Of a stretch of 64,000 bases of DNA, positions 1 through 61,743 are shown piece after piece; position 1 is the stretch's first letter, and each line of letters begins with the position of its first letter. The translations under genes were made by a program, and so were the position numbers. The notes beneath the pieces were generated by a model that made no database searches, had not been told where the DNA came from, and worked only from the letters and a program-made list of their open reading frames with translations. Source of the stretch: Ceratodon purpureus (taxonomy: Eukaryota; Streptophyta; Bryopsida; Pseudoditrichales; Ditrichaceae); contig CM026431.1 in the NCBI GenBank assembly GCA_014871385.1, positions 10,569,594 through 10,633,593 on the forward strand, written 5' to 3'.

Positions 1-6
1 GCTCTT

Positions 7-1141
7 TGTCAATTTGAACTATAGCTTCGATGCATAGCGTATTAATCTGCAGAACTGTAGAATCAGAATGGAGAACTGGAGCAAACTAATTACTGTCTAA
101 TTGATTTGCAAAGCTTACTGTCAAATTGAAACTACAGATCTGCCGAAGAGTGAATTTATATGTAGTCTATGAGAGATAGAATGAATAGTTTGATCCAATG
201 GCTACTGTCTAATTGACAATTGAATTCATATTGCTTGCTGCATAATGTCTAGTTAACACTGGTCAAATGGACAAGATGGTGGTTCGGTATGCATCCATGG
301 GCATGCATACATTGTCAACTTGACTTGCATGGACCATGTCTAATTGACACAGTGGAGAGTTGGTGAGAGTTACAGTGAATGTGGTGACTCACACTGGATA
401 CTGTCTATTTGAAATCGAAGATATTGATGGAGCAAAGTGAACAGTGGATCAGATTGTCTATTTGAACTCAGAACGAAGGAAGAGTTACTGAGTGAATAGA
501 AAATAGAAATTCCAGAAAATAAACACAACAGTTTGTCCAATTGACAATTGCATTGTTGTGAATGGGAATTATGGAGAATGAGAGTTCCATGTGAGTACTG
601 GAACAGTGAAGTGAGTATTACTTGATAGTCTTTTAAATTGGATTGGCCATCTGAAATAGAAGACTGAGAATGACTTAGAGTTTATGGAAGCCAGATTGAG
701 TACATTGATGGATAAAAGTGACATTAATTATTAAGGAGTGATCAGCCTTAGTGATTATTAGTTCTCATTATAATAAAACTTGAATGTATTCAACTGAGCA
801 ATAGTACAGTCATTGTAATTGAGTAATACAATTGAGAAGTATAGTTGTGATGAATGGTAGAGTTGGAGTATGATTGAATGTGAATGAGTAGACAGTGATT
901 ACATGTCTATTTGAAATGCGTTGGATGGGAGGAAAAAGATGAAGACAAGCAAGGAGTTGCTTGAGATAAGTTAATCTATCATAACATATCCCAAAGCATC
1001 ATTCATAGGCATAAATAGGTTGAACACTAGATTCTAACCTAGTAATGAATGAACTTGCATATGCATAATAAATGCATTGTCTAATTGAACTTGGAAGGGA
1101 GTGATGGCAATAAACCGAGAGATGGTACTTGTCAATTTGAA
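7..1141. repeat. Dispersed short repeat field, TGTCnAATTGACA-like, upstream of hAT exon
   Basis: At least 13 copies of a 12-13 bp motif with consensus TGTC(T/A)A(A/T)TTGA(A/C) start at about 7, 94, 119, 206, 246, 313, 337, 402, 455, 534, 904, 1078 and 1130. All are in the same orientation. The best copies (206, 337, 534) read TGTC(T/C)AATTGACA, nearly palindromic. No protein-coding stretch of useful length lies in 1-1360. The field ends about 220 bp before the splice acceptor of the hAT exon, so it is either intron or 5' flank of that gene. Short dispersed motifs bound by the transposase are known near the ends of hAT elements; a binding role here is inference. Confidence 0.75.
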
Positions 1142-1360
1142 CTCCCATTACCCTTGAACCAATTGAGAGTTTGGATTACTTGGGTTTTGTGTGACTTGGG
1201 GTAATTAAAGACATTAGAGTTATAAAGAGATTCTTTTAAGGAAATACTTTGCATTCTATACATTCTTTACTTACTACAGTGACCTTTAGTTACGTTAAAA
1301 GCTAAACGAAAAGACCTATTCCCATGACTTACCACTATTTGTAAATTTTACCAATTACAG

Positions 1361-3654
1361 CTCACATCATGGACCTCTTACTAGAAGATTGGGGGAAGGA
1401 AGCAACCTTCAAAGAGCTGATTGCCTTGGCAAAACGCATACCAAATTTTATACGTCGCCGTCATGTCACCATGGCTTTGTTTCGCCAATTCAGCCCGAAG
1501 TTGTCTCTGTTGTTACCAGCGGAGACAAGATTTGGATGCTCGTACTTGATGATTGTTCGATTGCTTGAACTGAGGGAGGCACTAATCCAGGTGGTAGCCA
1601 GTCCGAAATGGGACGAATATGTGGGTACTTTATTCAATCGGTCAAATGGGTATCGAGCTCACACCTTAGCATGTCAAGTACGGAGTACCATTCTCGATGA
1701 GACATTTTGGTTACGTTGTGAGAATCTTGTGCATGTTATGAAGCTGGCTGTTGTGACCTTGAAGACATTTGATGGACAAACACCGGCAATGGGGAGGGCA
1801 TGGTTGGCCATGAATAATTTGAAGAAGCATGTGTTCCGTCTACGGGGTGATCCTTTTTTCCTAGACCCCGCTATAGCAGATCGCTTTGAGAAACATTTTA
1901 CGAAGAGATGGAAGATGATGTTGACAGATCTCCATTACGCAGGCGCCATTTTGAATCCCTACATTTTCCCGGAGAGCCACGAGCTATTGACTAACAGTGC
2001 TGCGAAGCGTGCACTCCTGCAAGTGCTAATTCATTTGAGTGAGTGCCTTAAACTGGACCACGATACTGTGTTGTTCGAGCTAACACAGTTTGAGGAACGC
2101 ACCGGTCCATTCAGCCCTTTGGAGGCCCCAAACATTCGACAGACTAAGATGCTACCTCATCAATGGTGGCAGCGGGTTGGAGGCGATGCGTTACCGTTGA
2201 TAGCAAAGCGCATCCTTTCGTTAACATGCTCGGCATCATCATGTGAGCGAAATTGGAGCATGTATTCCTTTGTTCACAGTAAGGTTCGCAACCGATTGGC
2301 CGTGAAGAAGGCAGAGGACTTGGTGTACATTTACACGAACAGTAAGCTCCTTCGGGAACGACGTGGAGCGGATCCTGTTCTTTGGTACGAGAACCAACCG
2401 TTCTCCGAAGACTCGGATGAAGAAGTGCCAGCCATGTACGATGAAGACGTATGTGATGATGATGGAGATGAAGGATTCCACGACGGACTTGAAGTTAATG
2501 AAGGCGATGGTGATGACGGTGGAGTTCATTACACTCCTGCTACTATGGATGATGAGTATCCAGAGTTACCCGTGGACAATGGTGATGGTGACATGCCACG
2601 CACTGAACCCGTTAACCAGCCGAATGGAGTTTTTGACTGGGCAGGATTTGATGAAGAGGCAGCTACTTCGCCTCACCACGTTGTCAATGAAATACAAGCT
2701 AGAGGCGAGGTCGCATACGATCGGGCAGACGATGATATTGACGATGAATTTGAAGTCGAAATGACTCAGCATCAAAGCGACGATGGTGGCAATAATGATG
2801 ACATTTACCCCGTTCGTAGCGTTTCGAACAATGACAATGAAGAAGGGGGTAACAACATGGGAGAGCAAATTCCAATTCCAGAAGACGTTGAGGGAGGAGA
2901 AGAAGTTGAACAACTCCAGGCCACTCTGCCAGTAAATGTTGAGGAAACAATCAGGTCTGGAGGTTTGGATGAAAGCCCTCCAAGAAATGAACAATCAGAG
3001 ACAGTCAGAAATGGACAAGAAGATGAAATTCTTATTGGCCGATTGTTTCAAACACCCCTGCCCCAGAGTACACCTTCAATCGGAGCAGTACTTGCAGGGT
3101 TGGGTCGACCCCCCCCACCTCGTTCAAACACTTCTACTGGGCATGGTTCATTAACTCCAACACCGAATACAAGCATTCCACTCACTTCTTCTGGACGAAG
3201 TCTACCGGCTGGACCTTCTACGACGCGTCATGGAGTGATACGGTCACGGAAAGGTCCAATAAACGTTCGCCCTTTTTTTTCAGGATATACTGTTGGAACT
3301 ACCCCGTCTGTACCTGTGGCTGTGGGTAAACGTAGATTACCCGTAATGAATGTGGACGGAATCACCGATAAGACCAAAAGACGGAAGATCAAAAGAATTG
3401 TGACCACAGTGGTGGATGGTACAGTTGACCACGAATTGCGCAACATTCATTCCACGGTGGAGGAGTATGTGCCTAATCAGGGGGGAGATGGAGATGACGA
3501 GGGGTCGAAATCCTCAGAAGGATATTACTCATCAGAAGATAGCCGTAAAGAAGCACCTGATGATGAAGACATTGTTGTAAGAGTACCATTGGGTAAGCCC
3601 GGTACTCGAAGGAATCCAGAGCGGCGCACCGCCAAAAAAAACAAAAAAAAGTGA
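1361..3654 (+). CDS. hAT-family transposase, C-terminal exon (5' part missing from window)
   Basis: The exon opens after a TTACAG acceptor ending at 1360 and first reads H-I-M-D-L-L-L-E-D-W-G-K, the usual hAT core entry (H..DLLLEDigK). The first ATG is at 1369. It runs through the P-x-E-T-R-F block and ends the domain with the hAT dimerisation region: L-x-C-x-A-S-S-C-E-R-N-W-S, then HSKVRNRL and AEDLVYIYTN, at roughly residues 285-330 from the ATG. The BED finger and first catalytic region are absent, so upstream exons must lie outside the window or are lost. After residue ~335 comes a ~425-residue tail, first very acidic (D/E-rich), then P/S/T-rich, with a basic KRRKIKRI patch and a lysine-rich end. 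The tail is unusually long. It looks like a domesticated or element-specific extension, but function beyond transposase origin is unknown. Confidence 0.85.
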
Positions 3655-3741: not shown

Positions 3742-3774
<33 letters not shown>

Positions 3775-3948: not shown

Positions 3949-4205
3949 GCTCGCGCCCCCCCTTCGCAGGCGCTCGCGCCCCCACCCCAAACCCCTTGCT
4001 CGCGCCCCCCTGCAATCGCAGGCGCTCGCGCCCCCCCCGCCATCGCAGGCGCTCGCGCCCCCCCACCATCGAAGGCGCTCGCGCCCCCCCCCCCCTCGCA
4101 GGCGCCCGCGCCCCTCCCAGTCGCTCGCGCCCCCTCGCTCGCGCCCCCCTTCCCAAGACGCTCGCGCCCCCCCTCTCAGGTGCTCGCGCCCCCCTCACTC
4201 ATGGC
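3949..4205 (+). repeat. GC-rich irregular tandem array, GCTCGCGCCCCC
   Basis: About eleven units of GCTCGCGCCCCCC(C), separated by variable 8-14 bp linkers, many of them (A)TCGCAGGC. The array is extremely C-rich on the plus strand, in sharp contrast to the AT-rich flanks. The open frames across it encode only low-complexity A/R/P peptides on either strand and are not credible genes. A second array of the same core lies at 17669-17845 in the same orientation, about 13.5 kb away, close to the other side of element A. Confidence 0.85.
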
Positions 4206-4747
4206 GTTGGCGCCCTTCCTCTTAGCCACGTCATCCCCCGAGTCAACAATATTTGGTGACATGTCAGACGCGTGGCATCCTAGGTGGCCAAGGTAACTCC
4301 CATTTCACCATTTGGGTGGTCAACCGTAAGTCCTGGTCAAACGGACCTCCCCTGACCCCTAACGGACGGACGAGCGGACCGGACGGACGGACCGGTCCTT
4401 TTGTCCCATGAACAACCCTGGCCGACTAGAGTAACAGTGTCCACCGTAAAAATCACAGGCCATACAATATAGACCTGCCTCACAAAGTCACCGTTCATGA
4501 TGCTTATCTAACATGGTTAGAGGCATCGGCGGACAGCCGACGACCACCGAAGAAGGAAAAGTAAGGTATCAGAACAACAAATAGAAGACAAAGCGTAATA
4601 CATGACTAGTATTGGGTCAATGGTAGAATACAATTCTTATTCGAAGGAATCACAGTGTTTACAATATTCAACTATAACGTTTACAGAGGAAACCATCACT
4701 AGCTACATCTTCTACAGCTAAGATCACAATCGTCGGCGGGCAGCCGA
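4206..4747. other. 3' flank of element A transposase gene, with GGAC repeat and palindromes
   Basis: A GGAC-rich stretch (4363-4398) includes GGACGGACGGACCGGTCC. Its reverse complement core (GACCGGTCCGTCCGTCC) appears at 17996-18024, so the two form a 13.6 kb-spaced inverted pair. Two family A palindromes are here, at 4526-4540 and 4732-4748; the second touches the stop codon of the minus-strand gene. No gene is seen. Confidence 0.7.
4363..4398. repeat. GGACGGAC short repeat, left member of an inverted pair
   Basis: Reads as GGAC tetranucleotide units around GGACCGGTCC. The right member at 17993-18024 has GTCC units next to GACCGGTCC, in inverted orientation. This could be a subterminal inverted repeat of element A. 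No target duplication was found. Confidence 0.5.
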
Positions 4748-7700
4748 CTAGTCTTCCTCCTCGTCATTCCAGTTCATCGAGATTCCATGCGATTCGAAGT
4801 TTGCCATGGCAGCAATCACAACATCTTCGGGTATTAGATGGGACTTTGGGGGCCCCTCATGCGTAGTTTTCTTGGTCCTATGAGTGTATACAACGGATTT
4901 ACACTCCACCCACTCCGCAAGAGTCAACTCCCTTTCCCACCGTCTTGTCCAGCACTCTCTCGCAACCTTCTTCTTACCTTCCTTCTTGCCCTTCATCGGA
5001 GTCCACCATTCAACCTTGAACTTACCGTAATTAGGACCAGGCTCTGTTATAACAGGCTCTATCGCCCTACCCATCCAAATGGGTAGGTGGTCTTCCTTAC
5101 ACGGACGACAGAAAACCCAATCGCCACGTAAAACGTCACGATATGGGTTAAACACAGACTTCGGCCTAGAGTTTTTCGGACCACAGAAAGGATAGGGCTC
5201 CACTTCATCCTCGTCACCGGGACGAATATCCGGATCCGGTATATATTCGTCCTGTGCATCGAATGTGGTGACGTGGTCCCGCTTCCAGTCTGAGATAGGC
5301 CAGAATCCTTCCTGTAAGGTGGCGGAATTGGGGGGCAGTGGCTCGTTGACCTCCTTTAAAATTCGTTCCCAATACAGTACATATGGTAACATGTCTTGTG
5401 CGTATTTCTTATCCCGAGCCATGCCAGTTCTCCAGTACTCAATGTACTTAGATAATCCACTTTTAATGAAATTTCTCTTCTCTGAACACTCCGCTGCCCT
5501 TGCCACCTCTTTATCCGCGTTCTTCTTGCCCTCATCGACTTCAACACTACCCCATAAGTGCTTATGAGGAACCGGTTTGGGATCACCGACGGGCAAACGT
5601 GGTTTACCCTCTTTGTCTGCCCTCCACATTTTCACGGGTTTGCCACGTGGAAGCCATGACGGATCAGTTGCACGCTTCTTGTACCTCATTACGGGCCACC
5701 CCGCATCCTCCCCATCCTCCACCACATAGAACTTAAAAAGATGCATTTCACTGTGACCTTCTATCGCATTACCTCCGTCGTGATGAAAATCAGCAACATA
5801 ACTTTTGAAGTCTGCCACTTCCTGAACAACCTCTGGAATAAAGGCAACTGTCTTCTGAGAATCCATGAATGCCTTCATAAGGTCTGCAAGGCAGTATGTG
5901 TTCTTTCGCTTAATGAGTTTCGATAGGTGACTGAAGTGGGCGTCGATGTCCTCATGTGTGTGTCCCACAATCAGGAAACCAACTGTAACTTCCTTGAATA
6001 TTCGCCTCGCCGTCAGCAACGAGCAGAATGCTAGAAGAAACCGGTTCTTGTTGTCCTTCGCAGAATTGTCAAGCTGGAGATACAACTTCTTCGGCAAAGG
6101 AACAGCAGGCCTACCAGGCAGAGGTGGAGTGAGTGGCTCATCTCTAGAAGGTGGAATTGAGGGGATGCAACGTGACGATCCATGCATTAGCGCTGCAAAG
6201 AATTCATTCTGTGGCGGTGCCTCGAAGAGTGCTTTTGACTCCCGGACAGGTAGTCTCTCCAAGGCACGGAATACCCTGCACAACGAGGAGATTGTGAAAT
6301 TTGGGTCTCCTGGCCACAGGGCAGTTGCATAGTGTGCGTAGGCGCCATCTCCGTGACCGTGAGTCAGCATTCCAGTACAGGAAATCGGAATTTGACCAAG
6401 CCCTGCCGTAGCCTTCGTGATACGTTGCATGCGGGGGATCGCTGTTTTCGATGTGTCCATCTTATCATGTATGATGCATAGGAACTCAGTAGGACTCTGT
6501 ATAGATTGGGTTGTCCATCCGTAATAAATGTTGCGACAAGCTCGCTGATAGTTCAAATGCCTGGTCCTATCCTCTGTCAAGCTCTGCCACTCGTCCGACC
6601 CTCTAGGATACTTGGCAATGAGTTCAACGAGGAAGTCACACTCAGTGCACTTGGAGAAATTACTTCCTACGGCCTTGACCTCAACGTTGCGGAAGTACTC
6701 CTTCCTCATGCGACTAACGGAGGACTGCGAAATCAGCTTCGCGTTGCACTGCTCATTGACCTGAATAGCACAGAGTGAGGTCGATCAGTTGGGAAGTTCG
6801 TCATCCAGTCGGCGGGCAGCCGACGATAGTAATCAGTACAATTCAGTAAACTATCCAAAGTGAAAGAAGATGAGGAGGAACTTACGGCGTTGGCCATTTC
6901 GCGCATGTGATTCCAGTTCATCGCAGACGGGAGTACTTTGAGCGCGGCCACTCTCTTCTTGCCAATCATCCGAAACTCATTGGGCATTTGGTCGGCATTC
7001 TCATTAACGATAGTGGTCAACGTCGCGCGGGCCTGGATTGTGTGAATCTGGGGACGATGTACACCGGAATTTCCGTGACTCCCACTGACACGACCACTTC
7101 GGGCCGCAGCCTTGTAGCTGTAGTACGCGGATTTCGATACTCCGTGAATGATATACCACGCCACTTCACATACGTCAACGTTCGCAAGAGTAACATAGAG
7201 CTTCCGCTTGCCGGGTACAGTATGTAAGTGCCCTTGCACAGCGAAGGACATCTCTCGCCTCGCCTGGAATGTTGTTGCGTAAAATTTACGCCGAATACTC
7301 ACAGTATCTTCCCATCTAAAAGTCTGGCAACATCGGTCCTTGCAACAGCGCTTTGAGCTCACTAAGCGGCATTCAGCAGGGACAACCATTCGACGAAGCT
7401 TAGTGGAAGAGACGTCATCTTTTTCGCGGACTTTCCTCCGCACCGATCGATAGGCATTCTTCGGGACACCATCCAGACCATCGTCCGCGTCGGCGTCTGC
7501 TAAATTCTCGGAGCAGTAAGTAATTATATCAGAGAGAAGGTGACCCCCTTCTAACCGAGTGTGAGTCAGACGCCATCTGAGAGTTGTCATCTGCAGATGA
7601 TCGTCTTCAGAGACGAAGAGAACCCCAACCTCTGTATCCCCTAGGACTTCATCATCACATGCCTCGTCCGGTAAACATACTTGAATCATTGCTCTACCAC

Positions 7701-8658
7701 GGACTGATAGATCATCATAAAGAAGTTCGACATACCGATTTCTCCAGAGGTGGCGGTCAGGATAAGAAGCATCTGGAGTGGAAGGAGTACCCGAGGTCCC
7801 GGAATCCGGACCCCAACAATGATCATCTGTTTCTACGTCGGATTCCCCTTGTTTAGACACATCGTCGTCACTGCTGATATTCATTGGAGACCTAGTCCCC
7901 AGATCCTGCTCAGACGGAGCGGAGTTGCTTTCATCAATTTCTTCATCTTCGTTCCCCAAGTGAGGCTCCGTCGGCGGGCAGCCGACGGGACATGTGCCAG
8001 CCAACGCGCCGTTCACAAGTGGACAGACCTTGTATCCACTCCAAAGTACCAATCGCCCCACAGCACACCCGATCGTTAACACATCCGGTAACTCGCAGAA
8101 AGCAGGTGTTTCAGAGAATTCTGGATTGACGGACGACACTCTCACTATTAGAAAGAAGCTGTGAGGAATCAAGAACCCCTCCCACGTTCCTTTAGGAGAG
8201 CACTCCATAATGACTCCAGCGGCAACACAACGCTTTGAGCCTCCGGATTCCTCGAGGAGCGCAACTTCCATCTGCTCTGCGAGGTCCAGGAATTCTTGAA
8301 CGGGCTTGACATCTTCTTCAACATCCGTCGGCGGGCAGCCGACGGCCTTGATGTCATCGTCTTCCACCTCTCCGAAAGGCCTGAGGTCGGCCGCCTCCCA
8401 CAATATCATTTGTCCTAAGCAGTTGCTCAAGGACTTCGCACCCTCATCCGGAAATGGTATATTCATTTCCATGCTGTCTGAAACCTCAATCACTTTTACC
8501 ACCACCACTATAGGATCAAATTCTACAACACGTTGGATCACTGCCCTGCCTGCATAATAGAGCCCAGAATGAGTAAGGGCCACGACAACGCCCTTTTTAA
8601 CCTTCCACCGCCCTGATCGGCCATTCCTTAGAAACGTCTGGATCGGCTCTACTTCCAT
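4748..8658 (-). CDS. DUF7869-type putative transposase of element A (2 exons)
   Basis: Exon 1 is 8658-6886 (donor GCC|GTAAGT), the intron 6885-6761, exon 2 6760-4748; phases match, giving ~1261 aa. The ATG at 8658 is the first in this frame. The N-terminal third is acidic and poorly conserved. A Cys-rich segment (RCCKDRCC) sits near residue 405, then a block shared with the 57.8 kb gene (SAYYSYKAAARSGR, HGN, LTTI). The core carries conserved acidic motifs: HDKMD (~688), LQLDNS..DNKN (~819) and GHTHEDIDAHF (~853). These are hallmarks of the DUF7869 family; assigning them as a DDE/D catalytic triad is inference. The intron holds one family A palindrome and two more are read in frame in exon 1 as VGCPPT. 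It is divergent from the ParB-like gene at 9668, so both probably use the 8659-9667 region as promoter. No stops or frameshifts are seen. Confidence 0.8.
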
Positions 8659-9667
8659 TGGATAAGAGATGAAGACCTCGTCGGCGGACAGCCGACAGGG
8701 TGGACGGGAAGTGTCCCCGCCGACGGAGTAAAATGTATCCGCCGACAACGAAGACGACTCGGCGGGCAGCCGACGCGGATCCTACGACTCGGAGTGTGCA
8801 CAGAAATAGCATCCGCCGACGATGACGGACACGTCCGCCGACAGAAATTGCAGGGGACCTGAGTTGAGAAGCAGTATGATGTCCCTAACCTGTCCAATCA
8901 GAGACTCCTCTCAACCGTCCAATTAGAAACGATAGACGAAGACAACAGAAACGGCAACAGAAGGTGCGGGACAGTTAAGCACATGCGGGAATAATAACGG
9001 TCCTCTCAGGAAACGTGTGCGTCAGGAGCACTCTCAGAGGGAATCGAAAGTGCAATGACAGAAATAGAATGAAGTATGCGCATCTGACGGGGGGTTAGTT
9101 ATGAATTCCCAGGAGTACAAATTGGCGCCAGAATCGAATTCAATTTTGCGCGCCTTGGACAGATCAAGATCCCATCATGGCGGCGAGATGCCCCCGCCGT
9201 CACAGAACAATGTTGGTTCATTATTACGAATTTGAACGTGGCGATTGGAGCAGCTGTCATATCACATGCCCACGCCATCATGACTGGGTGACGGATTGAA
9301 AAAAAGTCAAAAGACGTCCCATCATCATCCTACGTGGCGTGATGGGACGGATGTTAGGGATGACCATCCATGCATGGATGGTATGTACATAGCCATACGT
9401 CATGACCCATCGGGCGTGACGATTCAGTCTCGGGAGGTGGGGGTCTGTAGGGTATACACCCGCCACTCCCGACATTTCCTCCTCATTTCCAGCCTTCTCT
9501 TTCTCAGCTCTCTTTTGTCCTCTTCTCAGCGCTCCGCAGAGGTCGCGTCGGCTGCTAGGTTTTTCTGCGTCGGCTGCTAGGGTTGAGGGCGTCGGCTCCT
9601 TCACCTGCGCGCGTCGGCTGCTGTTCGAAGGTCATCCGCCGACGGTGAAAGGCCATCCGCCGACGAC
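8659..9667. promoter_or_regulatory. Divergent intergenic region of element A
   Basis: Lies between the start codons of two divergently transcribed genes. It holds full palindromes at 8680 and 8759 and a series of half sites: TCCGCCGAC at about 8717, 8739, 8813, 8833; GTCGGCTGCT at about 9546, 9568, 9611; ATCCGCCGACG at 9634 and 9654. Two other inverted repeats are visible: GTCCCATCA/TGATGGGAC around 9318-9350 and ATCCATGCATGGAT near 9367. Read as a shared bidirectional promoter with operator-like sites; this is inferred from position and repeats only. Confidence 0.5.
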
Positions 9668-12600
9668 ATGGCAGCCTCCGAGAGTGGGTAAGTTGTCCAG
9701 TCGGCTGTCCGCCGACGCTCCCCTTCTTGAGTCCTTCAAGTTTTCCATTTCTCGCCTGGGTTTGTCCCTCCCGTCGGCTGTCCGCCGACGCCACCCCTTC
9801 TTTTGTCCTTCATGTTTCCGTTTTCTCGCATGGGTTTGTTCCTCCCGTCGGCTGTCCGCCGACGCCACCCCTGCTTTTGTCCTTCGTGTTTCTGTTTTCT
9901 CGCATGAGTTTGTCCCTCCCGTCGGCTGTCCGCCGACGCCGTGACCCCTTCTTTTGCCCTTCATGTTTTGTGTTCTGGCGCATGGGGTTGTTCCTCCCGT
10001 CGGCTGTCCGCCGACGCCGTGACCCCTTCTTTTGCCCTTCATGTTTTGTGTTCTGGCGCATGGGGTTGTTCCTCCCGTCGGCTGACCGCCGACGCCACCC
10101 CTTTCTGAGTCCTTCATTTTTCTATTTTCTCACATGGGTTATTCCCCCCGTCGGCTGTCCGCCGATGGGGAGGGCGTGTCCATCCGCCCCGTCGGCTGTC
10201 CGCCGATGGAGTGAGAATCTGATGGTCTAATCTTGTGATTCTAATTTTGCAGGGCGAAGGTCGACTCCACCGCAAAACCGAATGGGTTACGGTGGCTCTG
10301 TGACAAGGTTGTTGATCCTGAAGTAGAAATACTCGCACGGGGCTTGAAACCGAGGGTGACATTCCTCGCTGATTCGAAGATAACGGAGTGGGGCATCACC
10401 TGGCGTGACACTCCCATGTCGCTGGGCTTCGTGACCAAAATAGGTCAGAAGCAAATGGCAGGTGGACCAAGATTTGAGATTATTGGTGCCAGGGAATGCG
10501 ACGATGAGGACAACGTGTGCTTGGTGTTTGCATCGGTTCCTGTCACGGAGGGCACACCAGTGGACTGCTTCGCGGTTGTAATTCCGGTTGAGAAGTGCAT
10601 GGACGGCTTGTGCTCTAAAGAAGTACAGGATGCGGCTACTTGGGGCAGGGGCGAGAACATAGCTGTTGCACAGATACTCGACGTGATTGATACGCTCGGG
10701 GACAAAGTGATGGAAGAGAAGACGAAGAACTTGGTTAAACCTGCAGCAAAGAAAAGAGGCGGCCGCAAGTCTGCTGTAGAAGCGGGCACTCGTACAGTCA
10801 CCCCCGAGACCGGAGAGACACAGACGACAGGGGAGTCATCGAGAAGGAAGAAGGGAAAGGCAGCGGCTGCTGAGGGCGAGGGTGGGAAGAAGAAAGGTGG
10901 GAAGAAGGAAGAGAAGAAGCAGACCGTGGCGGAAGCTCTCATGCTCGCAAACAATCTCACTTCCAAAACAAAGGACACCGACGTCCTTGCCATGTACCAG
11001 ACGTTGGAGGAGGGACTTGGGCACTGCTTCCCCAACGGGCAACGTGCCCTTCCTTGTCAGATTCCATATAACAGGATACACATAGCTCCCGACGAATTCA
11101 AGTACAGAGCGATATTCAGGAAGAGGCAGGATCAGATAAGTCTTTTCTACAAAGGACTTGGAGCAATCCGGAAGAAGCCCGAGCTGTACTGCCTTCCTAT
11201 GAGTGGTGACCCCAGAGTAAAGGATCCAGTGACGGGCGAGATTAAGCTTAAAGGCTTGGAAGGACTTCTTCGACCTTGGATGGCCCTAAATATCAAGTAT
11301 TCACTTACACTGGATGACGGCCAAATTAAGCTGGTACTTTGGTATGAAGATGAGGGCATCCACTGGTACATAATTGGAGGCCAGCACACGTTTGAGGCTT
11401 GTCGAGAACTGGGAGAGAAGGAACCACTGGACTCTCCTATGCGGCAGTATTACCTTAACCACGACATCATTCTTGTATATGCTGAGGACAAGGATACCCT
11501 CATTAAGGTCTCTAACGCCTTAAACATCGAGGTGAAGGATAAAGTCGCCGAAGTAAGTTTCAGGTCCCAGCTGGCGAAGATGCGCGCCAAATGGATCGAG
11601 CGGGGGAGGATCGACAAGAAAGATGACTACAGCGCATGGAAGGTATTTCACATCTTCCTCTTTTCCTGCTGTTTCCATGTAGTTGAAAGTCGTCGGCGGA
11701 CCGCCGACGCTCAAGTGGTTCTCCGTATTGCAGAAGTGGGATTTATTTATCAATGTCATTTTCTTCTTCCTTGCAGGAGTTCTGCAAGGAGTACCTCAGT
11801 CCGATTCTCGGAAAGTCCCCTACGTCCCAAACCTTCAAGTTGCCCTTAGTCTTCGTGTCTGACGAAACATACAACGAGTGGCAACTGGTGTTCGACGCCT
11901 GGGAGGAGGGGAGGATCATCGGGGAGGACGGTCTGAAACCAGGATTTCCCCCAAAGCCAGCCCGCCGGGACATAACATTCAACGACATGCAGTACGTGAT
12001 CGGTCTTCGGGACCACGAATGCAAGAGGCTGGCCAAGGAAATTCTGGACCTTAAAGTGTACGTCAAGGTCACTGGGAAAGAGGTGGTTCAACGGGATGGA
12101 ACATCAGTGGAGAATTGGTGTAAGCGTGTGAAATTCGAGTATATTGTCCGGAACGAGCTCATGTGTATTTACAGGGGCTTTGCACTGAAGAAATCAGGGA
12201 CTGGGAAGCATATTGAGTGGAGCATGGATGATTGGAATTCCCTTGAAGTCGAGAAGGGGTTCAATGATACAATGGTTAGTAATATTCGGGCTGACTTGGA
12301 AGATAGTCCTGAGGGGAAGGAGTGGCTTAAGGGACGGAATCATCCGCTCACGCCGTCGCAAGGGCCAACACCAGAATTCTTCAAAGACATTGTGCAAAAG
12401 TACTGGAAGTCGGATGTGGACCAGTCTTCGCAGTCGTCTGTACAGTTCGATGTTCGGATTGCAGAGGACCTGGGTGAAGTGTGCACAGCTCTTGACGTTC
12501 GCGGAGCATTCTCCTTCAACAAGGCGCAGTATGAGATGTTCGTGGTCTTTGGCTACGATCCAGCGGGAAAGGAGATGCCTAACATGCGACAACAACACAT

Positions 12601-14427: not shown

Positions 14428-14528
14428 ATCAGGCGGTGGCCCAGTCCATCTTTTAAATGCCTGCATTGATAATTTAGTGTAGTGATCGGGCTCTAGGATT
14501 GTGTTAGATGTTTGTACTGCCAAATATG

Positions 14529-14534
14529 AATAAA
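14529..14534 (+). terminator. Poly(A) signal AATAAA
   Basis: AATAAA about 100 bp after the stop codon at 14427; a likely polyadenylation signal for the short form of the ParB-like gene. Confidence 0.5.
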
Positions 14535-14659
14535 TTTTCGGTAAATGCCAAGTTGTACGCTTTCCCTTTTTTCAAATAATGTTGCTTGCAGGTCGGCTGT
14601 CCGCCGACCGTCATCCTAACCGTCACGTTTGTCCTCTGCTTCGTTTTCTGTCACTCCAG

Positions 14660-15429: not shown

Positions 15430-15517
15430 TAGATGTAGAAACTGTTTTAGAGAGCATGCACATGATTCAGTCGGCTGCCCGCCGATGGGATCTTCATGTA
15501 TTTAGACTTTTTCAGTA

Positions 15518-15523
15518 AATAAA
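15518..15523 (+). terminator. Poly(A) signal AATAAA
   Basis: AATAAA about 90 bp after the stop codon of HAD cassette 1. Confidence 0.5.
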
Positions 15524-35019: not shown

Positions 35020-35083
<64 letters not shown>

Positions 35084-47770: not shown

Positions 47771-48470
47771 TACTTCTCAAACATTATATTCTTAGCGCCT
47801 CCACTAACCCCCACTTCATAATTGATATACATTGGTTGAATTTGCTTCATCAATTTTTTCCACACATGGAATCTCTAATAATCAACTATGCCTTTGTATT
47901 GACTATTATAAAGTTCAATTTGACTATAGTAAAATTCCAATTGACTTGCATTTTTAATGCCTCAACTCTTATGGGTTTTGAAAAAAAAATGGATAAAATA
48001 TATCACATTTTAAAATATCGATGTGTTGGTTAAAGGTGGCCTCATCATTAATTTTTTTTTAGAGTAGAGAATAAAAATACATACATAAGAAATAATACAT
48101 AAAAAAAAGAAATTCCTTAAATTCATTTTATAGTGAATATAAATATCAAATTTAGCTTCAAGTGTTAAGATTTATTTAGATGACATAGGATGGATGTTTT
48201 GGCTTAATCCCCTGGAGTTTGATTGGATTATTTACGTAAAATTCATTGAAAAATTAATTAATATTATTTTAATAGAATATCTTAGACATTTGTTCAAGGA
48301 AAGATGTTATAATACAATGATGAAGAATCCAATAAAAATTTAAGCCTATAGGTCAAGAATGAATAATAAATTGTAAAATAGAAAAAGACATCATGTTTGT
48401 TTGTGTATTTTAATATGAAAATTTAGAATTTCTTTTAGATCTTTTTTACTATTGACAAATGTAGAGTTCT

Positions 48471-49228
48471 TTTTGACCCCCAAAGGCCTGAGCCTATGAC
48501 CACAAAAATAGACTTTGACTTTGGATGCTCTTTTTTGCTACTAAAAATAGAAAAAAATAATGTAAAATATGAATTTTTATTCTTACTTAGGTAGATACAT
48601 GTTATCTACGAGCAATATTTTTATTAAAAATAGTGGTTTCATTATGTAATTAATAAAATAAAACAAAGAAAATTCATATTGAATATAGGTTATACTAAAA
48701 AATTACGAATTATTTACCATAAATGTGTATGACAACCACAAATCTTATACTAGTTACCGTGCTAAAAAATTATAATCTAATTCAAAACTATGATGAAAAA
48801 ACCTAAAACCGTGGATAATCAAGTAGTAGCCACGTTTATACCCCTTCATCTTATACCGGCTATAAATTACTCCATTTTAGGTATTTAAAAAAAAAAAATT
48901 GGACTAAAAAAAAGATTTGTCAAACTACATTTCATTAGTTTATCTTAACTGCAAAAAAGATCATCTCAATAGTTGAAATTGTGTTTCAGCAGTTTGTATT
49001 AAGGAATTTTTGAATACACACACGATATTGATGTTTTGGACTTTAAGGAGGCAGCAAAATTCATGAAATTATTATTTTGAGGATTCATTAATGAGATTAG
49101 ATATATTTCTCACAACTTTACAACATGGGAAAAAATGGATGAAAAATTGTCATATAGATGACTGTTATAGAACTTGGAAAAATGAGATCGACTAGTTTTT
49201 GGTTGTTTAGGTGTTTAGGGGTTATTTT
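48471..49228. mobile_element. ~0.76 kb insertion found only in one duplicate
   Basis: The proximal copy reads directly from GAATTCTAG to TTTCC-ATAA-type flank around 42.75 kb. Here ~758 bp intervenes, starting TTTTGACCCCCAAA and ending TTTAGGGGTTATTTT, so the ends are roughly inverted and TTTT may be a target duplication. It has no coding capacity. Ends resemble the AACCCCTAA-bounded segment at 18.4-19.3 kb. Confidence 0.5.
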
Positions 49229-50987
49229 CCATAAAACACATTAAACATGCTGTTGCACATTATATGACATGGTGATTATTGCATATTGCTATTGAAATAT
49301 TTACTTTATATGTTTATAGTTTTGAAAGGTAATAAAAAATTGATCATTGTGATAGATTTTATAAATTTGAATTTATAACATGTAAAACAATTCTTTTAGT
49401 AGGGTATCATAGTTCTCAAATATATAAAAAGATAAAATAAGAAACCTAAGACCTTATGCAAAGCTATATATAATTTGAACAATTATTTTTTGTACAATTC
49501 AAATTATGATATATCATTGACCTAAGGTTGTATGACTACATATTCAATTGTTTGGTTATATGGTCCATCTCCAACATGAGTATCATCAATCAAATCATAA
49601 GAGAAATATAGTCAAAATAAAAAGAATTTTAAAATATACTGCTTCGATTAAATATTAGTAAAAATACTCAATCATAAAAAGATGGGGGGGCAAATTTTCA
49701 AACAAACCGTAATGAATTCGGTTCTGCAGAATGATGTTTATGATTTGGGAAGGCTTGACGTAATATATGTATGTAATATATTAACATAAACAACAGAGAC
49801 CGTGGTCCGTCTGCACCTGCTCACTCACAAACCTGAAAACCTTTGGATACCATTTATGATACTTGTCCACTTCCTCGTATCAAAGAACAAATAAAAATTA
49901 TGACCAAATTTCAAAATGGCTTTTATTGAAGATGTTTTATAGCCCAAAATATTGATGTATTGTTGAAAAAACGGGAGTTTTGTTTACATACATTTAACAC
50001 ATTAATTTATTGTTTGTACAGAGAATTCACGAAATCAATACAGGTCAGAAGCATTAGGAATACCAAAATCAAATAGTAATTTACTTTTATTAAATTTTTT
50101 GAAAACAAAAAAATCAATAAATCCAGAGAGTTAAAAAATAGAAATCTAATGTTTTTTTTGAAATGGATTTATCCATGATTTTGAAGAGCTCAAACCATCT
50201 ACCTAATTTTGATAATTAATGTTTTCTTTAAAAAATAGAATTTGATCTTTTTAAAATTTATGTGCGAACTCTCATTAGTGCTTATTTATTTGACAAACAA
50301 TTACATTTTGTTCCATGTTCAGGTCACTCTCATATACAAAGAAATTGGTTTTTTTTTTCCCATAATTGGAATAAATGAATTTGTAATAATTGGAATATTA
50401 CACACATGTATTGTAGTATTAATTAGTATTATTATTTTTAAAGTCCACTAGAAAGCCACACTTCTAAATTTGGTTAAAACGAACCAACAATTTAACTTAA
50501 TATGAACTTGTAAACAATCATTTAAATGCTAAAAAAGACCATGATTCTAAATAGAATACAAAAACCTTGTAGTTTTTTTTTTTTCTAAAATCCATTTCCT
50601 AAAATGTAAACAAATACAGTGAGTACTCGGAATTAGCTTGTAAAAGTTCCATACTTTTTCCATTTTAAAAACATCATTACTTTTATGTACAAAAAATGTA
50701 AGTGGAAGCAAAATATATAAACCTCAAGCACCTACTCTTGAAATAGACCTATTGAAAACAATGTGGACTAAATTTGAACTCCAAACTCCTCCTAGATTGG
50801 AAGAACATCATCTTTTGATATCAAGAAATGCTATGAAAATTTCAATAGTTTGGCAAACTAAAAGTGAAATGCTAAAACATAATCGCACATCATTAAACTT
50901 TCAACTCCAAATTAAATTATCCCTTATCATTTTAAAAATACCTCAATACTCTAAAATCATGAAAACCCATTGATGTGTTCCACTAAA
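49229..50987. other. AT-rich 3' flank of the NLR-TOPLESS gene
   Basis: Duplicated DNA, no gene recognised. Confidence 0.7.
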
Positions 50988-53900
50988 TTACAGCCTTGCA
51001 ATGCCCAATGCTTGCTCACATTTTACAAAGCTAAAAGCGTCCACAAACTTGTATGGCAACACAGAGCCTCCTTGGTTCCCATTCAGCCTCCTCACATCTT
51101 GACTCCCTTCCCCACTTCCTGGTTCGTTGTCTGCTGGGGCCTCCCATGGCTCCACCACTATCACGCTCCCGTCGCTCATGCCCATTGCAAACTGACCTCG
51201 AATCCTAGGATGTGCAGCAATCGCCACTGGGTAGGCTGTTGATCTACCACACAACAATCACCATGTCATGAGTACTCGGCAGCCAGTCTGGAATCTGTGA
51301 CCTATTCCTTGCCTACAAGAGAGACTAGAAACCATTCCACGAATATTGATGCCCGGATTCCACTGACTGAGGGTTGATGAAAAGGATGCAATCCAACTCT
51401 CAAGCTCACACCGTAGATGCCAACAACAAATTGGGTTCAGCGAATGCTCATACATCCAGTAACGATTCCATACCCGCTCGCTCCCAGATGAGGTGGGTGA
51501 ATTGGTGGGACTAATCGACGAAGTGGCCGAAATTGAGCATCAATAATACCGACAGAACCATCCGCGAAGCCCACGTAAACAAATAGGCCGTCACATGAGT
51601 AGGTGGCGTCTGTAATTGCTGCCGTGAATGCACTTTGAGGAACCCACTGCACAAACCCCACCACGATACTCTCAATCTTAGGAAACGTGCTTCGTTATCT
51701 GCAAGATGCTCCAGCAATTTGACACCATACTTCTCAAAACTGCCACTAGAAATCTGCACAAGAAACCATGTGTGGGCATCTGCTGCTCCAGACTTCATCC
51801 TCAACCATTTAAATCAGTTGTTTCAGAGCAACCCTGGTCTACGGCATACAGATCATTAGTTTTCAAAGGAGCTGACCTCGATATAAGGACGATCCGCATA
51901 CAAAGTGTCGTAGACAGCCAACTGCGACTTCCCCACAACAAGAACGTGGCGTTGGTCGTTGTAGAATTGAACGCGAAGGTCCCCCGCGCACGCTGTCGTC
52001 TGATCCGGTTGTAATAACGCAAACCTCGACTGACGTTTGCCCCACTCCTCTGTTTTCCATACGCACAACTGCAGTAGGGGATGTCTTAGAACAATTTAGC
52101 TTTTGGAAGAGATTGCTGACAACAGCACACCAGGATGTGGAAAAAACTTGTAACTTACTCCACTTTATCAATTTAGCTACTTTAGTATGAGGAAACCGTA
52201 CTTCCTCCTTTAAAATCACAAAAACAATAATGCCAACATTAGTGTAATTGAGTCCCGGCAGCTTCAAATGCAGCTATGGTTTTGACTAAATATATTTAAA
52301 TGATATCTTTGCTATGTAGCTACAACAATGGATTCTCGATCACTCTCTAAAAAATGTTAGTCGAGATGCTTGAGTTTGCATCCTTGATTGAAGGGTGGTG
52401 AAAGGCATGTTTACAATACCTGAGCATCTGCACTTAAGGATACAAGTACACTTGTAGAATTTGCAAAATCCTTCGAGAATGCCAACCCAATGACTTTGTC
52501 CTGATGGCCAGCCAATGTGCACACCACCTGCAAAGAACATGCGAGAGTCACACTAGTTGCACATTGGTGTCCTCAACCTACCCAAGAAAAACAAACGTGG
52601 AAACTGCATGTAGAAGTTGCATTGAATCACAATGGGCAATGGGGCCATGCCACGATTACTAACCACTTGCTCGGATGTATTTAAGATTTGAATTGTTGAA
52701 TCCGCCATTCCTATGGCCACAATATTGTTGTCATGGGGATAGAATGCAATTGATGTTGGTGTTGGAGGTGGATACATAATTGTATCCATCCTCTAAATCC
52801 AAATTTGCATCATTTACACAACAAATGTTGTCAATAACCACATAATTTCAAGTTCAAATTTGAACCCAGTGTTGAGAAAAAGGGTTGGGTGTCGTTTATC
52901 TATATAGATAGATATCTTCTCAAGCTATCAACTCACTAATATTGTAGCTAGAGAATTTATAATCTAAAGCCTTTATGACAAAACAATGTTAGCTTTGAGG
53001 TTTTTAATTTACCCACTCTAGCTATTTAGGCGTTTTAAAGCAAATATACACTAGAAAATATGGATTAAACTTGATCAAAATGTGTTTACACTATGAATAT
53101 TTTCAAGATTTAGAGATAATGGAAAATAATTATCATAATAGAATATTACCACATAATTATAAAATTCTCACACTACCAACTATTCTATTAAAATACGTGA
53201 GAGTACTATACCTCGCTAGTGCGGATATCATACTCACAAACCGATCTTCCCGACGCTGATATCACACGAAGGCCATTGTGGCTAAGTGTAAAACAATGCA
53301 CCACTTGTTCCGAATTGACGTCATTCATATCGTTGACCATCAACCTTCCACTTGCATGTAGCCATAATTGTGGAGCAATACTTACAGTAGCCTAGGAAAA
53401 TTTATTTGGAAGACGGGATTAGTCACTAATATATTTAGAAAATCAATATATAAATCCTCATAGATTTAGATGAATATAGATAAAACTTCCACAAATACTA
53501 TAAATTGGACCATTACTAGCTTTGTTAAACACAAAATTTCTATGACTCATGAAGAAAAGAAACACCTAAACCAACATCTTAACTCACACTTTGAGCTAAT
53601 TATATATTTCACATTTATACCTTCATTCACCTTCTTCAATGATCTTTAGTTTGAATAGACTTATACCTTCACGATATCTATGTTCAAGATTACGCAAGAC
53701 TATAAAGCATAGGCCATTTAAAAGCCTCAAGTCACATAAACTTTAGTTCAATCAGTAACCACATCCTCAAAATCACATCCATGACCATTGATTCTTTTCA
53801 TTCAATGTCACAAAAAGTGTACAATACCACTAATTGAAGTCCACTTGTAGAACCCTAGCATAGCATATTACATAACATCTTACAATAGCAATATGATAAA

Positions 53901-57761: not shown

Positions 57762-60608
57762 TCACTCAGAAGATGAACCCTCATCATCTTCTGCTTGGTA
57801 ACGATCAATGGAAGCTTTAATAATTCCGATCTGTAAAACTGGAATACGCATCCGTGGATTCAAAGATCCCTCTTTAATACGAGACTGCCATGAAGCCATG
57901 ATACAATCTGTATGGACCCAAGTTGGGTCAAATGCAGGATCTTCACGCCAAGTATTACCATTGTTGGAGTCCCATCCCTCGTAAGTTTCTGCGTCCACGT
58001 GAAGAGTTGTGGCTGGAGTCCAATATTGTACTGAAATTTCATTCGGATGGTTACGATCTGAATTTGGATTAGTCAGAGCTCTCCCTATCCAAACAGGTGC
58101 TCGATTGTCTTCATCAGGTGGTCGGATAGCGAGAAAGTACCCTGCATAAACATCTCTTCCAACACGAAATGACTCTCGAGGACGATCTCGCCTACGACCA
58201 ACATGAGGTGCATCTCGTTCAAATTCTTCTCGCAAAGTTCCATCTGCTTGGAACCGATCAATCTCCGATGGCGCGATCCTTGTATTTGGCCAAAATCCGT
58301 CCCGAAGATGGTCTACTTCGGGGAGTGGAATATCTAGAGCTGCTTTCACACCCATCCAGTAGTACTTGACGGGTTCGATTGATCTTCGAAACTCTCCAGA
58401 CAAGTCATCATCTGCCATTGCACTCCATAAATTGATAAATGACTCGATACCTTTGCAAACCTCGTCATGTCCACGCATTTGCCGAGGTATTACAGGGTTT
58501 GGATCACCACGAGGCACGTTTGGGGATCCACTCTGAGTCTCCTTCCAAAGTTGAATTCCACCGCCTTCTCTTGGCAACCATTCATTATCAGTACAGACGA
58601 GCTTGTATTGCATCAAAGGCCAACCATTGTTATCCAAGTAGAACTTGAATTGTTGAGCGTTGCTATGGCCTTCCAAAGCATCACGCCCAGTGCACAAAAT
58701 ACCATCTACAAAAGACTTGAAATCAGGGACTTCTTCAATGAGATGTGGAATAACCGGACGAGACTCGGCATCCATGAAAGACTTCATGAGCAATGGTAAG
58801 GTGGGGTAGTCTGTTCCCCGAAGCTTGTAGCTCCATCTCCCAAAAAGAGCATCAATGTCATCGTGTGTATGCCCAACAATCAAGAAGTTAATGTAGACCT
58901 CCTTGAATACACCATGGAATGTTAGAAGTGAGCAAAAGGCAAACACATATCGGTTCTTGTTATCGCCAGATGCATTGTCAAGTTGGAGATTTAGCATCGG
59001 CGGCAGAGGTTTTGCCTCAACCACTTCATTGGAGATGGGGGCCAGAGATGATTCACACATCTCAGCACCATCAAGCAATGCGGAAAACAACGGAGCTGAT
59101 CTTCCTCCATTGAAAAGCTCCCGAGATGAATGTTTCGGTGGCTGTTCCAAATCCCGGAGCAACTTCGCAATGGAGCCAATGGTGTGGTTGGAATCACTAG
59201 GATAAACATCTAGTCCATAATGTGCATATCTCACGTCTCCGTGACCATGAGCAATCATCCCCGTAACAGAAACGGGGAGCTTCATGAAGGAATCCATATT
59301 CTTACTTTTATGAGAGAAATGGGGAGAAGAAGTCTTCGAATGATCCATCTTATCATGAATGATAGTGACACTCTTCTCTGGTTCTTTCTCTGAAATAAAG
59401 CGGTTCGCATAATACACTTCGCGATGTGCTTTCTGACCTGCAAGATGCATGTCTAATCTCTTCTGGCACACGTCAAAGGGTCCCGTACCCCTAGTGCATG
59501 CTGCTCGTTGCCGCTTCAGCTCATCACAGCCTCCACATCGAGCAAAGTTGTCTCCCCGTTTCTTAGGAGAGAATTCCGAGAAGGATTCCTTCCTAATTTT
59601 GCTCAGACCACTAGGTGAGATATCTTTTAGCCCCTGTTGCTGATTACCTGCGTTTATCTCTGAAAGAGTGCTACTCCAATGAAATGAAGATGGAAGGGAC
59701 ATGGCCACAACTTTCTCTCCATCGTCCCTTGTTCTTGACTTGTGCGGCATATGATCCGCAGTCGTCTCTAGAATTGTCCTCAGTATGGCCGTTGCTTGCA
59801 GAGTGTGAGATCGCGGTTTCTTAGTACCGAGATTCCCATGCGGTTCTGCACGCTTTCCACTGGAGGCTGCCGCCTTATATCGATAATAAGACGATCTGTG
59901 CAAACCCATTATAGTAGTCCACGCTTTAGGACAAACCTCCAAACCTTCAAAGGTAATCTTCTCTTTTCCAGTAGAGTCCATATGAATTTGTTTATGCACA
60001 TCGAGTAGTCTGTGCTTCCTATGATAAACCCCACCCTCAACGTATAGTTCAGATCTCAGAGCAGCAATAATATCTCGAGGAAATGGTTGAAGACAGTTAC
60101 TTGAGCAACATGACTGTGTCGATACATGAGTAATGGATTCATTACTCAGTAGAGCTTCTTTTCTAGGAATCTTCTCTGGATTACTCCGCTCTCGTGAACT
60201 ATCGTACGCACGGGATCCTACACGAGGACGCTGACTTGCCTGAGCAATCTGAAGATTGAAGTTGTACATTTGGTCGTGGTCATGCAAATTGGCTCCGTTG
60301 AGGAAGGCACGAGATGTTGGCCACCCTCTCAATTGCCATAACCAGTCCAGAGGAACATCTTCTGGGAGAAAGGATTCAACAATGAGAATTGCGACATGGT
60401 CATCACCGAGAGGTTGATTGTTACTATTAATGACCAGAGTAGGGTCAACGTTATGGCAAATCCCTCTTGCCACATCTGTACCTGCCTCATTTCTGAGGAT
60501 AACACATTTCGTCATCCAGTCTTTTCTAGAGAGGCCTTCGCAGTCAGCAATTCCAACAGGTCGGGCAACATTCTCCGGTCCAACTCCAAGTCCATCGGAC
60601 TCAGCCAT
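57762..60608 (-). CDS. DUF7869-type putative transposase of element C
   Basis: A single open frame of ~948 aa from ATG 60608 (MAESDGLGVG) to stop at 57762; an in-frame ATG at 60701 would add 31 residues. It is homologous along its length to the element A gene at 4748-8658: CCSSNCLQPF (~168), VCPKAWTTIMGLHRSSYYRYKAAA, HGNLG, then HDKMDHSKT (~414), GMIAHGHGDV, LQLDNASGDNKNR (~541) and NFLIVGHTHDDIDALFG (~578), ending in a charged C-terminus. The element A gene has an intron after M-A-N-A; here the frame runs on through the equivalent point (INAGNQQQ). A Cys-rich segment C-x2-C with further Cys near ~370 may bind zinc. A CTATAG just before the ATG might be a 3' splice site of an upstream non-coding exon. 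Probably an intact mobile-element gene. Confidence 0.8.
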   Translation of the reverse strand: MAESDGLGVGPENVARPVGIADCEGLSRKDWMTKCVILRNEAGTDVARGICHNVDPTLVINSNNQPLGDDHVAILIVESFLPEDVPLDWLWQLRGWPTSRAFLNGANLHDHDQMYNFNLQIAQASQRPRVGSRAYDSSRERSNPEKIPRKEALLSNESITHVSTQSCCSSNCLQPFPRDIIAALRSELYVEGGVYHRKHRLLDVHKQIHMDSTGKEKITFEGLEVCPKAWTTIMGLHRSSYYRYKAAASSGKRAEPHGNLGTKKPRSHTLQATAILRTILETTADHMPHKSRTRDDGEKVVAMSLPSSFHWSSTLSEINAGNQQQGLKDISPSGLSKIRKESFSEFSPKKRGDNFARCGGCDELKRQRAACTRGTGPFDVCQKRLDMHLAGQKAHREVYYANRFISEKEPEKSVTIIHDKMDHSKTSSPHFSHKSKNMDSFMKLPVSVTGMIAHGHGDVRYAHYGLDVYPSDSNHTIGSIAKLLRDLEQPPKHSSRELFNGGRSAPLFSALLDGAEMCESSLAPISNEVVEAKPLPPMLNLQLDNASGDNKNRYVFAFCSLLTFHGVFKEVYINFLIVGHTHDDIDALFGRWSYKLRGTDYPTLPLLMKSFMDAESRPVIPHLIEEVPDFKSFVDGILCTGRDALEGHSNAQQFKFYLDNNGWPLMQYKLVCTDNEWLPREGGGIQLWKETQSGSPNVPRGDPNPVIPRQMRGHDEVCKGIESFINLWSAMADDDLSGEFRRSIEPVKYYWMGVKAALDIPLPEVDHLRDGFWPNTRIAPSEIDRFQADGTLREEFERDAPHVGRRRDRPRESFRVGRDVYAGYFLAIRPPDEDNRAPVWIGRALTNPNSDRNHPNEISVQYWTPATTLHVDAETYEGWDSNNGNTWREDPAFDPTWVHTDCIMASWQSRIKEGSLNPRMRIPVLQIGIIKASIDRYQAEDDEGSSSE

Positions 60609-60746
60609 CCTATAGTATGATGAACAGATTGTTAGCGATGATTTAACATAATTCGATACATGCGAACACGATAGCACGCAATTTCTATACACTTCAAACA
60701 TTACAAACGAATTCTCAAATTTTGCAGAATAAGAACGACCACATTA

Positions 60747-61743
60747 TTATCTTCGAGTCGAGGATAATATAATAAAGAAAAAATATACCAAGTGGCAGCA
60801 ATATTTACACTCCAGTAAAAACTAATGTTACATATGAACGATCATGACTGTCAATCACGTCTCTGTCGCGAGAAGGCAGTAATTCGTAAATGTTTTAATC
60901 CTGCGTAATACAAAAACCTCATATTCCTCTAAGATCGATCCAAAAAGAGGAGTCTTTATCCTTGACTCGAGGATACATCTCTAAATGCTCAATCAGTTCA
61001 CATATTAGGATGTTTGTTAAGAAGGCGATTTTTACCTAGCTAATGAATATGTCAATATTCTTCTTTATATAGTATTGATGCATAAGATGTACGATTATAT
61101 GTCATGGAGGGAAGTTTTTCTTCTCCTTTCCGTAGAAACTCAGTTCCTTTAAAATATGATTAAAGAGTGGACGGTCCTTGCTGAAGAACTGCGAATCAAC
61201 AATATTTAATGCAATGAGTTCTCAGGACCGAGTGCTTTTATCCTCGACTCGAGGATAATTTCCTACTTTCTGGAGCACGAAGTGCACTTCTAAGCCTCTA
61301 CAAACAACCTATTTTATTAGGTCTCCATAATGAATTCAAAGGTATAAAACTGTATAGTAGGAGGTATCCCGTATTCTCGACTCGAGGATAATGCTCTGTA
61401 CACATCAATGACCGAGAATCATTATCCTCGACTCAAGGATAATGCCTTCTACACATCAATGACCGATAATCGTTATCCTCGACTCGAGGATAATGACAAC
61501 TAAACATCAAGGATCGATAATTGTTATCCTCGACTCGAGGATACTGATTAGTTATCATCAATGATCAATAATCCTTATCCTCGACTCAAGGATAATCATT
61601 TGTAAACATCAATGATCGATAATCGTTATCCTCGACTGGAGGATAAAGTATTCGTATATGAAAATATAGGAGCTCCCTCATATGTTTCGTATTAAAGGAG
61701 CACACTTTCCAAATCCATCAGATTATCCTCGAGTCGAGGATAA
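60747..61743. repeat. Family C palindrome array, TATCCTCGACTCGAGGATA
   Basis: Ten copies with arms TTATCCTCGA and TCGAGGATAA around a CTCGA/GTCGA centre. Starts: 60747, 60956, 61238, 61372, 61421, 61472, 61523, 61575, 61626 and 61723. Six copies from 61372 to 61646 form a tandem array of ~51 bp units that also share ACATCAATGA(C/T)CGATAAT. All lie 140-1140 bp upstream of the element C start codon, on the promoter side. None occurs elsewhere in the window. Confidence 0.92.

Follow-up and report, generated by a model that had tools for sequence, protein, structure and literature searches.

The closest described systems are the VANDAL elements, a transposon of the alga Ectocarpus and the ParB-methylases of bacteria and phages. 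In VANDAL elements, VANC proteins carry DUF1985 and VANC21 binds the motif YAGTATTAY (PMC5735166, PMC10398659). The account of this motif describes high-density arrays in the introns of VANC21 and VANB21 and upstream of VANA21, spread by tandem repeats and rare in other VANDAL families (PMC5735166). ParB-methyltransferase genes are already known in algal transposons: the description of Sola1-1_Ec32 from Ectocarpus places a gene with ParB and methyltransferase parts on the strand opposite the transposase, and its authors suggest that proteins of this kind may both bind and modify the transposon that encodes them (PMC12477816). In the ParB-methylases described from bacteria and phages, a ParB domain is fused to a DNA methylase (PMC5512222).

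We analysed a stretch of 64,000 nucleotides of the moss Ceratodon purpureus (the window; C11:10569594-10633593 of a 362-Mb genome in 151 contigs), which looks like plant nuclear DNA. Two mobile elements in it, A and B, are likened to the VANDAL/VANC arrangement (PMC5735166, PMC10398659) by short family-specific motifs that are dense in introns and upstream and come from tandem repeats, by related element proteins with different predicted targets and by a transposase-type gene alongside. They differ from it in that the moss protein is ParB-like and its candidate sites are palindromic, and in the methyltransferase-like domain of element B. As DUF1985 gave no match in Pfam-type domain searches of the window proteins, the moss protein is not a VANC and is likened to one only in its working. 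Element B shares with Sola1-1_Ec32 a ParB-like and N4/N6 methyltransferase-type gene opposite the transposase strand in a large mobile element; it differs in its moss host, in having other transposase-type genes, in the altered motif IV of the window copy and, mainly, in its candidate sites, none being named in the account of the Ectocarpus element (PMC12477816). Compared with the bacterial and phage ParB-methylases (PMC5512222), which combine the same two kinds of domain, the moss gene is eukaryotic, split by introns, very divergent and accompanied by dyad arrays in cis.

Palindrome families in the window

A dyad scan of the window made without a prior motif returned palindromes A, B and C as the top families, the leading recurrent 6-bp arms being GTCGGC (18), TGCCGG (13) and TATCCT (8) once shifted registers of the same sites were set aside. 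Each family is confined to one unit, without mixing. Palindrome A (consensus GTCGGCNGNCNGCCGAC) has 25 sites with at most one mismatch at 4525-19410, where 0.03 were expected, and 5 of these 25 lie in predicted exons. Palindrome B (ASTGCCGGYRCCGGCAST) occupies 14 positions at 22372-28454 (0.11 rows expected), all 14 within the two largest introns of the pB gene model. Palindrome C (TTATCCTCGASTCGAGGATAA) occupies 10 positions at 60748-61742, against 0 expected, partly as a 51-bp tandem array located 5' of a DUF7869 gene. The fourth motif, TGTCNAATTGAMA-like, forms an array of 14 positions at 1-1142, in a putative intron before the C-terminal exon of a hAT transposase (1345-3651, + strand; Dimer_Tnp_hAT, PF05699, E 9.2e-7; acceptor read from the sequence at about 1368). 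It is degenerate, enriched at the window start and a weaker family than A, B and C: where 21 rows were expected the window holds 47, of which 24 (the 14 positions) fall within the first 1.15 kb and 23 are scattered over the other 62.9 kb. A sequence-only reading had proposed four palindromes, each with its own unit and placed in introns or upstream; this picture is borne out for the confinement of A, B and C and for the placement of B and C, and has to be softened for the hAT motif and for the A sites in exons.

All families are inverted repeats and many copies lie in transcribed introns, where RNA hairpins could act in splicing or in small RNA. This explanation is scarcely credible: the spacers are 5 bp in A, 2 in B, 1 in C and 0 in two further groups described below (II and III), leaving several dyads with no room for a loop; the central asymmetry of palindrome A occurs in both directions, and the C array lies upstream of its gene.

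Palindromes had also been said to outlast the DNA between them. Within the window duplications this was confirmed, in pairwise counts that are not independent: palindromes versus linkers were identical at 250/255 versus 691/891 positions for A, 41/42 versus 276/387 for B and 180/190 versus 238/320 for C, with the limit that 62/394, 5/389 and 10/389 other windows were conserved as well, per site, as the B sites. Between copies the claim held in part. Against L150, a close copy, the sites of the window showed turnover and were conserved no better than the remaining sequence (85/98 versus 1309/1462), whereas at the larger distance of L151 they were better conserved (73/98 versus 654/1622).

Elements A and B are mobile units

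Genome-wide, palindrome A occurs 2858 times, compared with 3 times for a control in which the pattern is read backwards, and its sites are clustered among the genome matches listed. Three clusters on C1, chosen by their clustering, were retrieved as stretches of 30 kb each, a single site at C1:2805555 being left out. In their main blocks they are 97-100% identical to element A of the window (4421-19697) and contain full copies of 15,622, 15,748 and 15,761 bp, whose 25-bp ends pair as inverted repeats (TIR 22/25) and which are flanked by 4-bp target duplications (ATAA, TTAT and ATGT). Element A is thus a DNA transposon, with dispersed near-identical copies, TIR and target duplication. The window itself gave no convincing TIR, the ends of elements being recognised by comparing copies; its copy of element A retains the right end (...AAATATCCCTT), has lost the left end within a palindrome and has received two later insertions. 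Sola superfamily transposons have a 4-bp target duplication, a likeness to element A. A second likeness to this superfamily is the ParB-methyltransferase accessory gene of its Ectocarpus member (PMC12477816).

The three copies carry 14, 18 and 18 exact A sites, and none was found outside the element in any of the 30-kb stretches. Host regulator sites exploited by the elements as promoters or enhancers would suit the position of the palindromes, since promoters and early introns typically harbour regulatory sites; this confinement (50/50 exact sites inside elements, in stretches picked by clusters) and the six distinct sites found within a single protein family (see below), which would call for many host factors, make it very improbable.

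Element A carries a transposase-type DUF7869 gene (4748-8781, - strand; PF25273, E 5.1e-44; two ORFs taken as exons) and, divergent from it, the ParB-like gene pA (9668-13530, + strand; four exons in our model). Intron 1 of pA contains a 74-bp tandem array with 8 palindrome A sites. Downstream of pA lie three NIF/FCP1-phosphatase-like modules (14660-17693, + strand; PF03031, E 1.8e-13, 7.2e-10 and 2.2e-5); by eye, the second Asp of the DxDx motif is absent in each, and they are possibly pseudo-phosphatases.

Several minor features of element A were noted. Solo half-sites of the palindrome crowd the divergent promoter, at 8697-8840 and 9545-9665; the element has 15 of them against 5 expected (maximum of 300 simulations: 15). 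A 929-bp insertion at 18402-19330, missing from the three other copies, has TTAA flanks and ends CCCCTAA...TTAGGGG and resembles a non-autonomous element of the piggyBac type. Arrays rich in GC (GCTCGCGCCCCCC), bounded by CGGACGGACCGG-type edges, occur at 17676-18071, as an insertion absent from the three other copies, and at 3949-4420, adjoining the breakpoint of the window copy. In viral contigs, palindrome A was found as one site each in 80 contigs among the matches listed, with no arrays.

Element B extends from about 19.70-19.75 kb to 35643 (19698-35643). A copy on C3, the one against which its ends were seen, has a ParB exon identical to that of the window and matches element B at 98.8% over 19744-20422, 98.7% over 28821-34772 and 94.5% over 34773-35643; between 20422 and 28821 the comparison covers the ParB exon with 1.5 kb of flank. 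As the match includes both gene regions, pB travels as one unit with the transposase-type gene. Neither TIR nor TSD was recognised in this comparison with a single copy. The multi-exon gene pB (20212-29240, - strand) contains a ParB-like exon at 25116-25722 and a methyltransferase-like domain at 21150-20212. The divergent transposase-type gene (30240-33951, + strand) looks MULE-like: its predicted product resembles MULE/SWIM proteins, with a SWIM match (E 0.053) below the cut-off.

ParB-like and methyltransferase-like parts of the predicted proteins

We call pA and pB ParB-like by motif, GGQHT in pA and DGNHR in pB, the latter nearly invariant in 38 aligned pB-family sequences (A2). Neither family matched a ParB profile in Pfam, PDB sequence profiles or PHROGs, nor did the B family in NCBIfam; the closest hit in the ParB profile searches was DndB (best E 0.085, 2/38 sequences). 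The extension of the self-recognition idea to ParB-like genes, part of the sequence-only reading, is retained for the arrays that lie at pA and pB, while the ParB label itself is one of motif. No relatives were found in viral contigs (A2, A3) or in bacterial and archaeal genomes (A2 only).

The C-terminal part of pB matched phrog_3008 (E 1.1e-7) and, under the Pfam cut-off of 26.7, PF01555 (E 7.8e-5, 23.2 bits), and it was aligned with a phage methyltransferase over 235 residues in the motif order IV-X-I. At motif IV, the window copy reads DFPDG where the phage enzyme has DPPYG, so that the catalytic motif [DNS]PP[YFW] is absent, with DFPD at the DPPY position. Judged from these alignments, pB carries a beta-class N4/N6 methyltransferase-like domain whose activity is doubtful in this copy, and we say methyltransferase-like because of the altered catalytic motif. 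The gene model is matched by the Ceratodon protein P0173, which spans the exon 3/4 junction in the same way. An in-frame TAG at 21972-21974 of the model stands beside an acceptor-like TTTTAG, and would reflect either a missed short intron or a disabled copy. A first impression that pA is also a beta-class methyltransferase found no support in profile searches or in a direct pairwise test.

Palindromes and ParB-like proteins co-vary in the pB family

The ParB exon of pB gave 1878 first-look candidates genome-wide; the 150 that were scored are 62-100% identical. In the genome, palindrome B was counted 556 times, against 19 for the control read backwards. On C1, where the B sites are taken as fully listed, 2/2 scored paralogs of at least 82% identity sit in B clusters compared with 0/5 of those at 65-72%, and one of the three clusters has no scored paralog. 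On C2, whose sites are listed in part, 1/4 B clusters has a scored paralog (97%) and three paralogs at 65-72% lie outside clusters. Over these listed sites of C1 and C2, 4/7 B clusters contain none of the 150 ParB copies that were scored out of the 1878 candidates. The paralogs at 65-72% outside B clusters were therefore predicted to have palindromes of their own. L146, L147 and L148 indeed carry AGTGCCGTTAACGGCACT or TACTGCCGTTAACGGCAGTA 10, 8 and 13 times, whereas in simulated controls, 20 for each, no family of arm and loop occurred more than once.

A further 20 paralogs, hand-picked across the identity range rather than drawn at random, were retrieved along with the 1.5 kb lying 5' of the exon. 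Adding the window and L146-L148 gives a sample of 24 members with 62-100% identity, and a recurrent palindrome was present in the 1.5-kb 5' flanks of 24/24, the top family having 3-20 copies; among equally long background pieces, taken from nine 10-kb stretches chosen arbitrarily, 0/54 had at least 3 copies. The palindromes fall into six groups: TGCCGGYRCCGGCA (I), AGCAGTGCCGTTAACGGCACTGCT (II), ATGTACTGCCGTTAACGGCAGTACAT (III), GCCGGTACCGGC with CGAC/GTCG-like flanks (IV), ATGCCGN4CGGCAT (V) and GGTACTGCCGTTGCCGGCAGTACC (VI). The groups have a GCCG-type core in common, and the flanks and centre change alike in both arms; the consensus sites of II and III are perfect dyads of 24 and 26 bp. Such symmetric changes around a constant core are what a dimeric binding protein would enforce. 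Spread of the palindromes independently of these genes had been set beforehand as the refuting outcome for their link to them. It was looked for with A and B, and the link was not refuted: the genome matches listed are clustered, the three A clusters retrieved are element copies and an array is present at 24/24 of the pB relatives examined.

Placed on the ParB tree, the six groups, labelled by the analyst, require 5 changes, which is the minimum, while shuffled labels require a mean of 14.2, with 0/200 as low; groups IV, V and the assignment of L161 are based on 3-4 sites each, and group V is a single long-branch row. Group III is placed twice in the tree, and a single site of a different class occurs in each of L161, L162 and L167. 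Because the flank travels with the gene, some agreement between tree and motif is expected without any function. The introns, however, turn over while the sites persist, so that the agreement amounts to more than linkage: when ten representative flanks are compared between groups, the best alignment covers 23-44 bp or there is none, and the flank of L153 (group I, protein 81% identical) matches that of the window over a single 26-bp stretch, yet has 8 sites of the window's type. Combined, these results show that site and ParB-like protein co-vary in the B family, and that motif arrays specific to a family and changing with the protein, a trait of VANC, are present there.

Micro-repeats that are neutral or spread by themselves, homogenised by tandem duplication and gene conversion and bound by no protein, would account for the tandem arrays, for the sites in exons and for the turnover between close copies. 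They are quite improbable, given the same placement in every one of the 24 paralogs examined, the lack of 3 or more copies in any of the 54 background pieces and the retention of a GCCG-type core with symmetric arm changes despite replaced introns.

The sites might also be bound by the transposase (DUF7869 or MULE-like) and serve transposition in the manner of subterminal or enhancer sites. Palindrome A also surrounds the DUF7869 gene of element A, element C carries a DUF7869 gene beside which no ParB-like gene was seen, and the hAT motif adjoins the hAT gene. Yet the introns of the ParB-like gene contain every B site, with 0 between 28455 and 35643, the stretch holding the transposase-type gene, and the motif groups track the tree of the ParB-like protein, the one tree built. 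Binding by the transposase is on this account unlikely. The proposal that each transposon-type gene has its own palindrome thus survives in part, with the mobile element as the unit and with the ParB-like protein (on the ParB tree), not the transposase-type gene as such, as what the palindrome could be shown to follow.

A proposed self-recognition model for the ParB-like proteins

The probable reading is that a ParB-like protein borne by the element binds the palindromes of that element, with a VANC-like role in self-marking or anti-silencing. The layout like that of VANC21 and the type of protein found in Ectocarpus lead us to favour such self-recognition; the case is strong for the pB family and good for A. 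Elements A and B are large mobile DNAs in which a transposase-type gene faces a ParB-like gene on the other strand, and the palindromes would be cis sites for the product of the latter. This protein would bind, probably as a dimer, densely near its own promoter and in its own introns. As the protein diverged, its sites would change alongside, through symmetric changes in the two arms and tandem amplification, until each lineage recognised only itself. The likely effect would be to set the chromatin or DNA-modification state of the element, in the simplest case by keeping its genes from silencing as VANC does for VANDAL. Since window pB has no DPPY motif, its methyltransferase-like part more likely acts without catalysis, by binding or exclusion, than by methylating the sites.

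For the two remaining units, this logic is only suggestive. The DUF7869 gene of element C (57765-60743, - strand; PF25273, E 4e-43) has 60 relatives among the matches listed, and no mention of DUF7869 was found in the literature searched. No ParB-like gene was seen beside the C or hAT arrays among the window ORFs (read for C by eye rather than by profile). A second C-type array with 4 perfect sites was observed on C11, 6.5 kb past the window end (L136:6528-7120), and that 10-kb stretch gave no match to the C protein. The prediction that each element recognises its own palindrome is thus favoured by the arrays of A and B and by co-variation in the B family, and weakened by this C array and by the faint hAT motif.

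In the literature on ParB-type genes in transposons, we found no report of co-varying sites of this kind. Quite possibly, though we hold to this tentatively, mosses have a large, fast-diversifying family of transposon ParB-like/methyltransferase-like proteins that act in self-recognition with co-evolving, parS-like palindromic addresses, many copies of which are carried by each lineage, a system for self-marking or anti-silencing that arose independently of VANDAL. If so, transposons would provide a second, independent example of anti-silencing or self-marking guided by sequence, and the paralogs would offer naturally occurring pairs of protein and site in which to follow how ParB-like specificity evolves. 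With candidate sites spelled out for six paralog groups, self-binding is directly testable.

Two observations concern the distribution of the family. Many of the 150 scored pB relatives are on C6, a contig of 110.5 Mb (30% of the genome) that is taken to be the V sex chromosome, its proteins being named KC19_VG... In the B cluster at C2:5384081-5385469, 4/4 sites are of a variant with a TA centre (TGCCGGTACCGGCA), which may mark a separate sub-lineage.

Base composition

Element introns have a CpG content of 0.68-1.06 (sites masked in B and C), compared with 0.28-0.35 in the neighbouring AT-rich DNA (39.9-51 kb); exceptions are the hAT intron (0.26) and an AT-rich stretch outside the elements at 62400-64000 (1.01). 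The higher values would fit weak methylation, but also youth, and the substitution spectra of the window duplicates do not discriminate past methylation. The AT-rich segments 39900-44250 and 46200-51050 are strongly depleted in both CpG (0.28 and 0.35) and CHG (0.34 and 0.46), and are part of a duplication with genes read as WD40-like.
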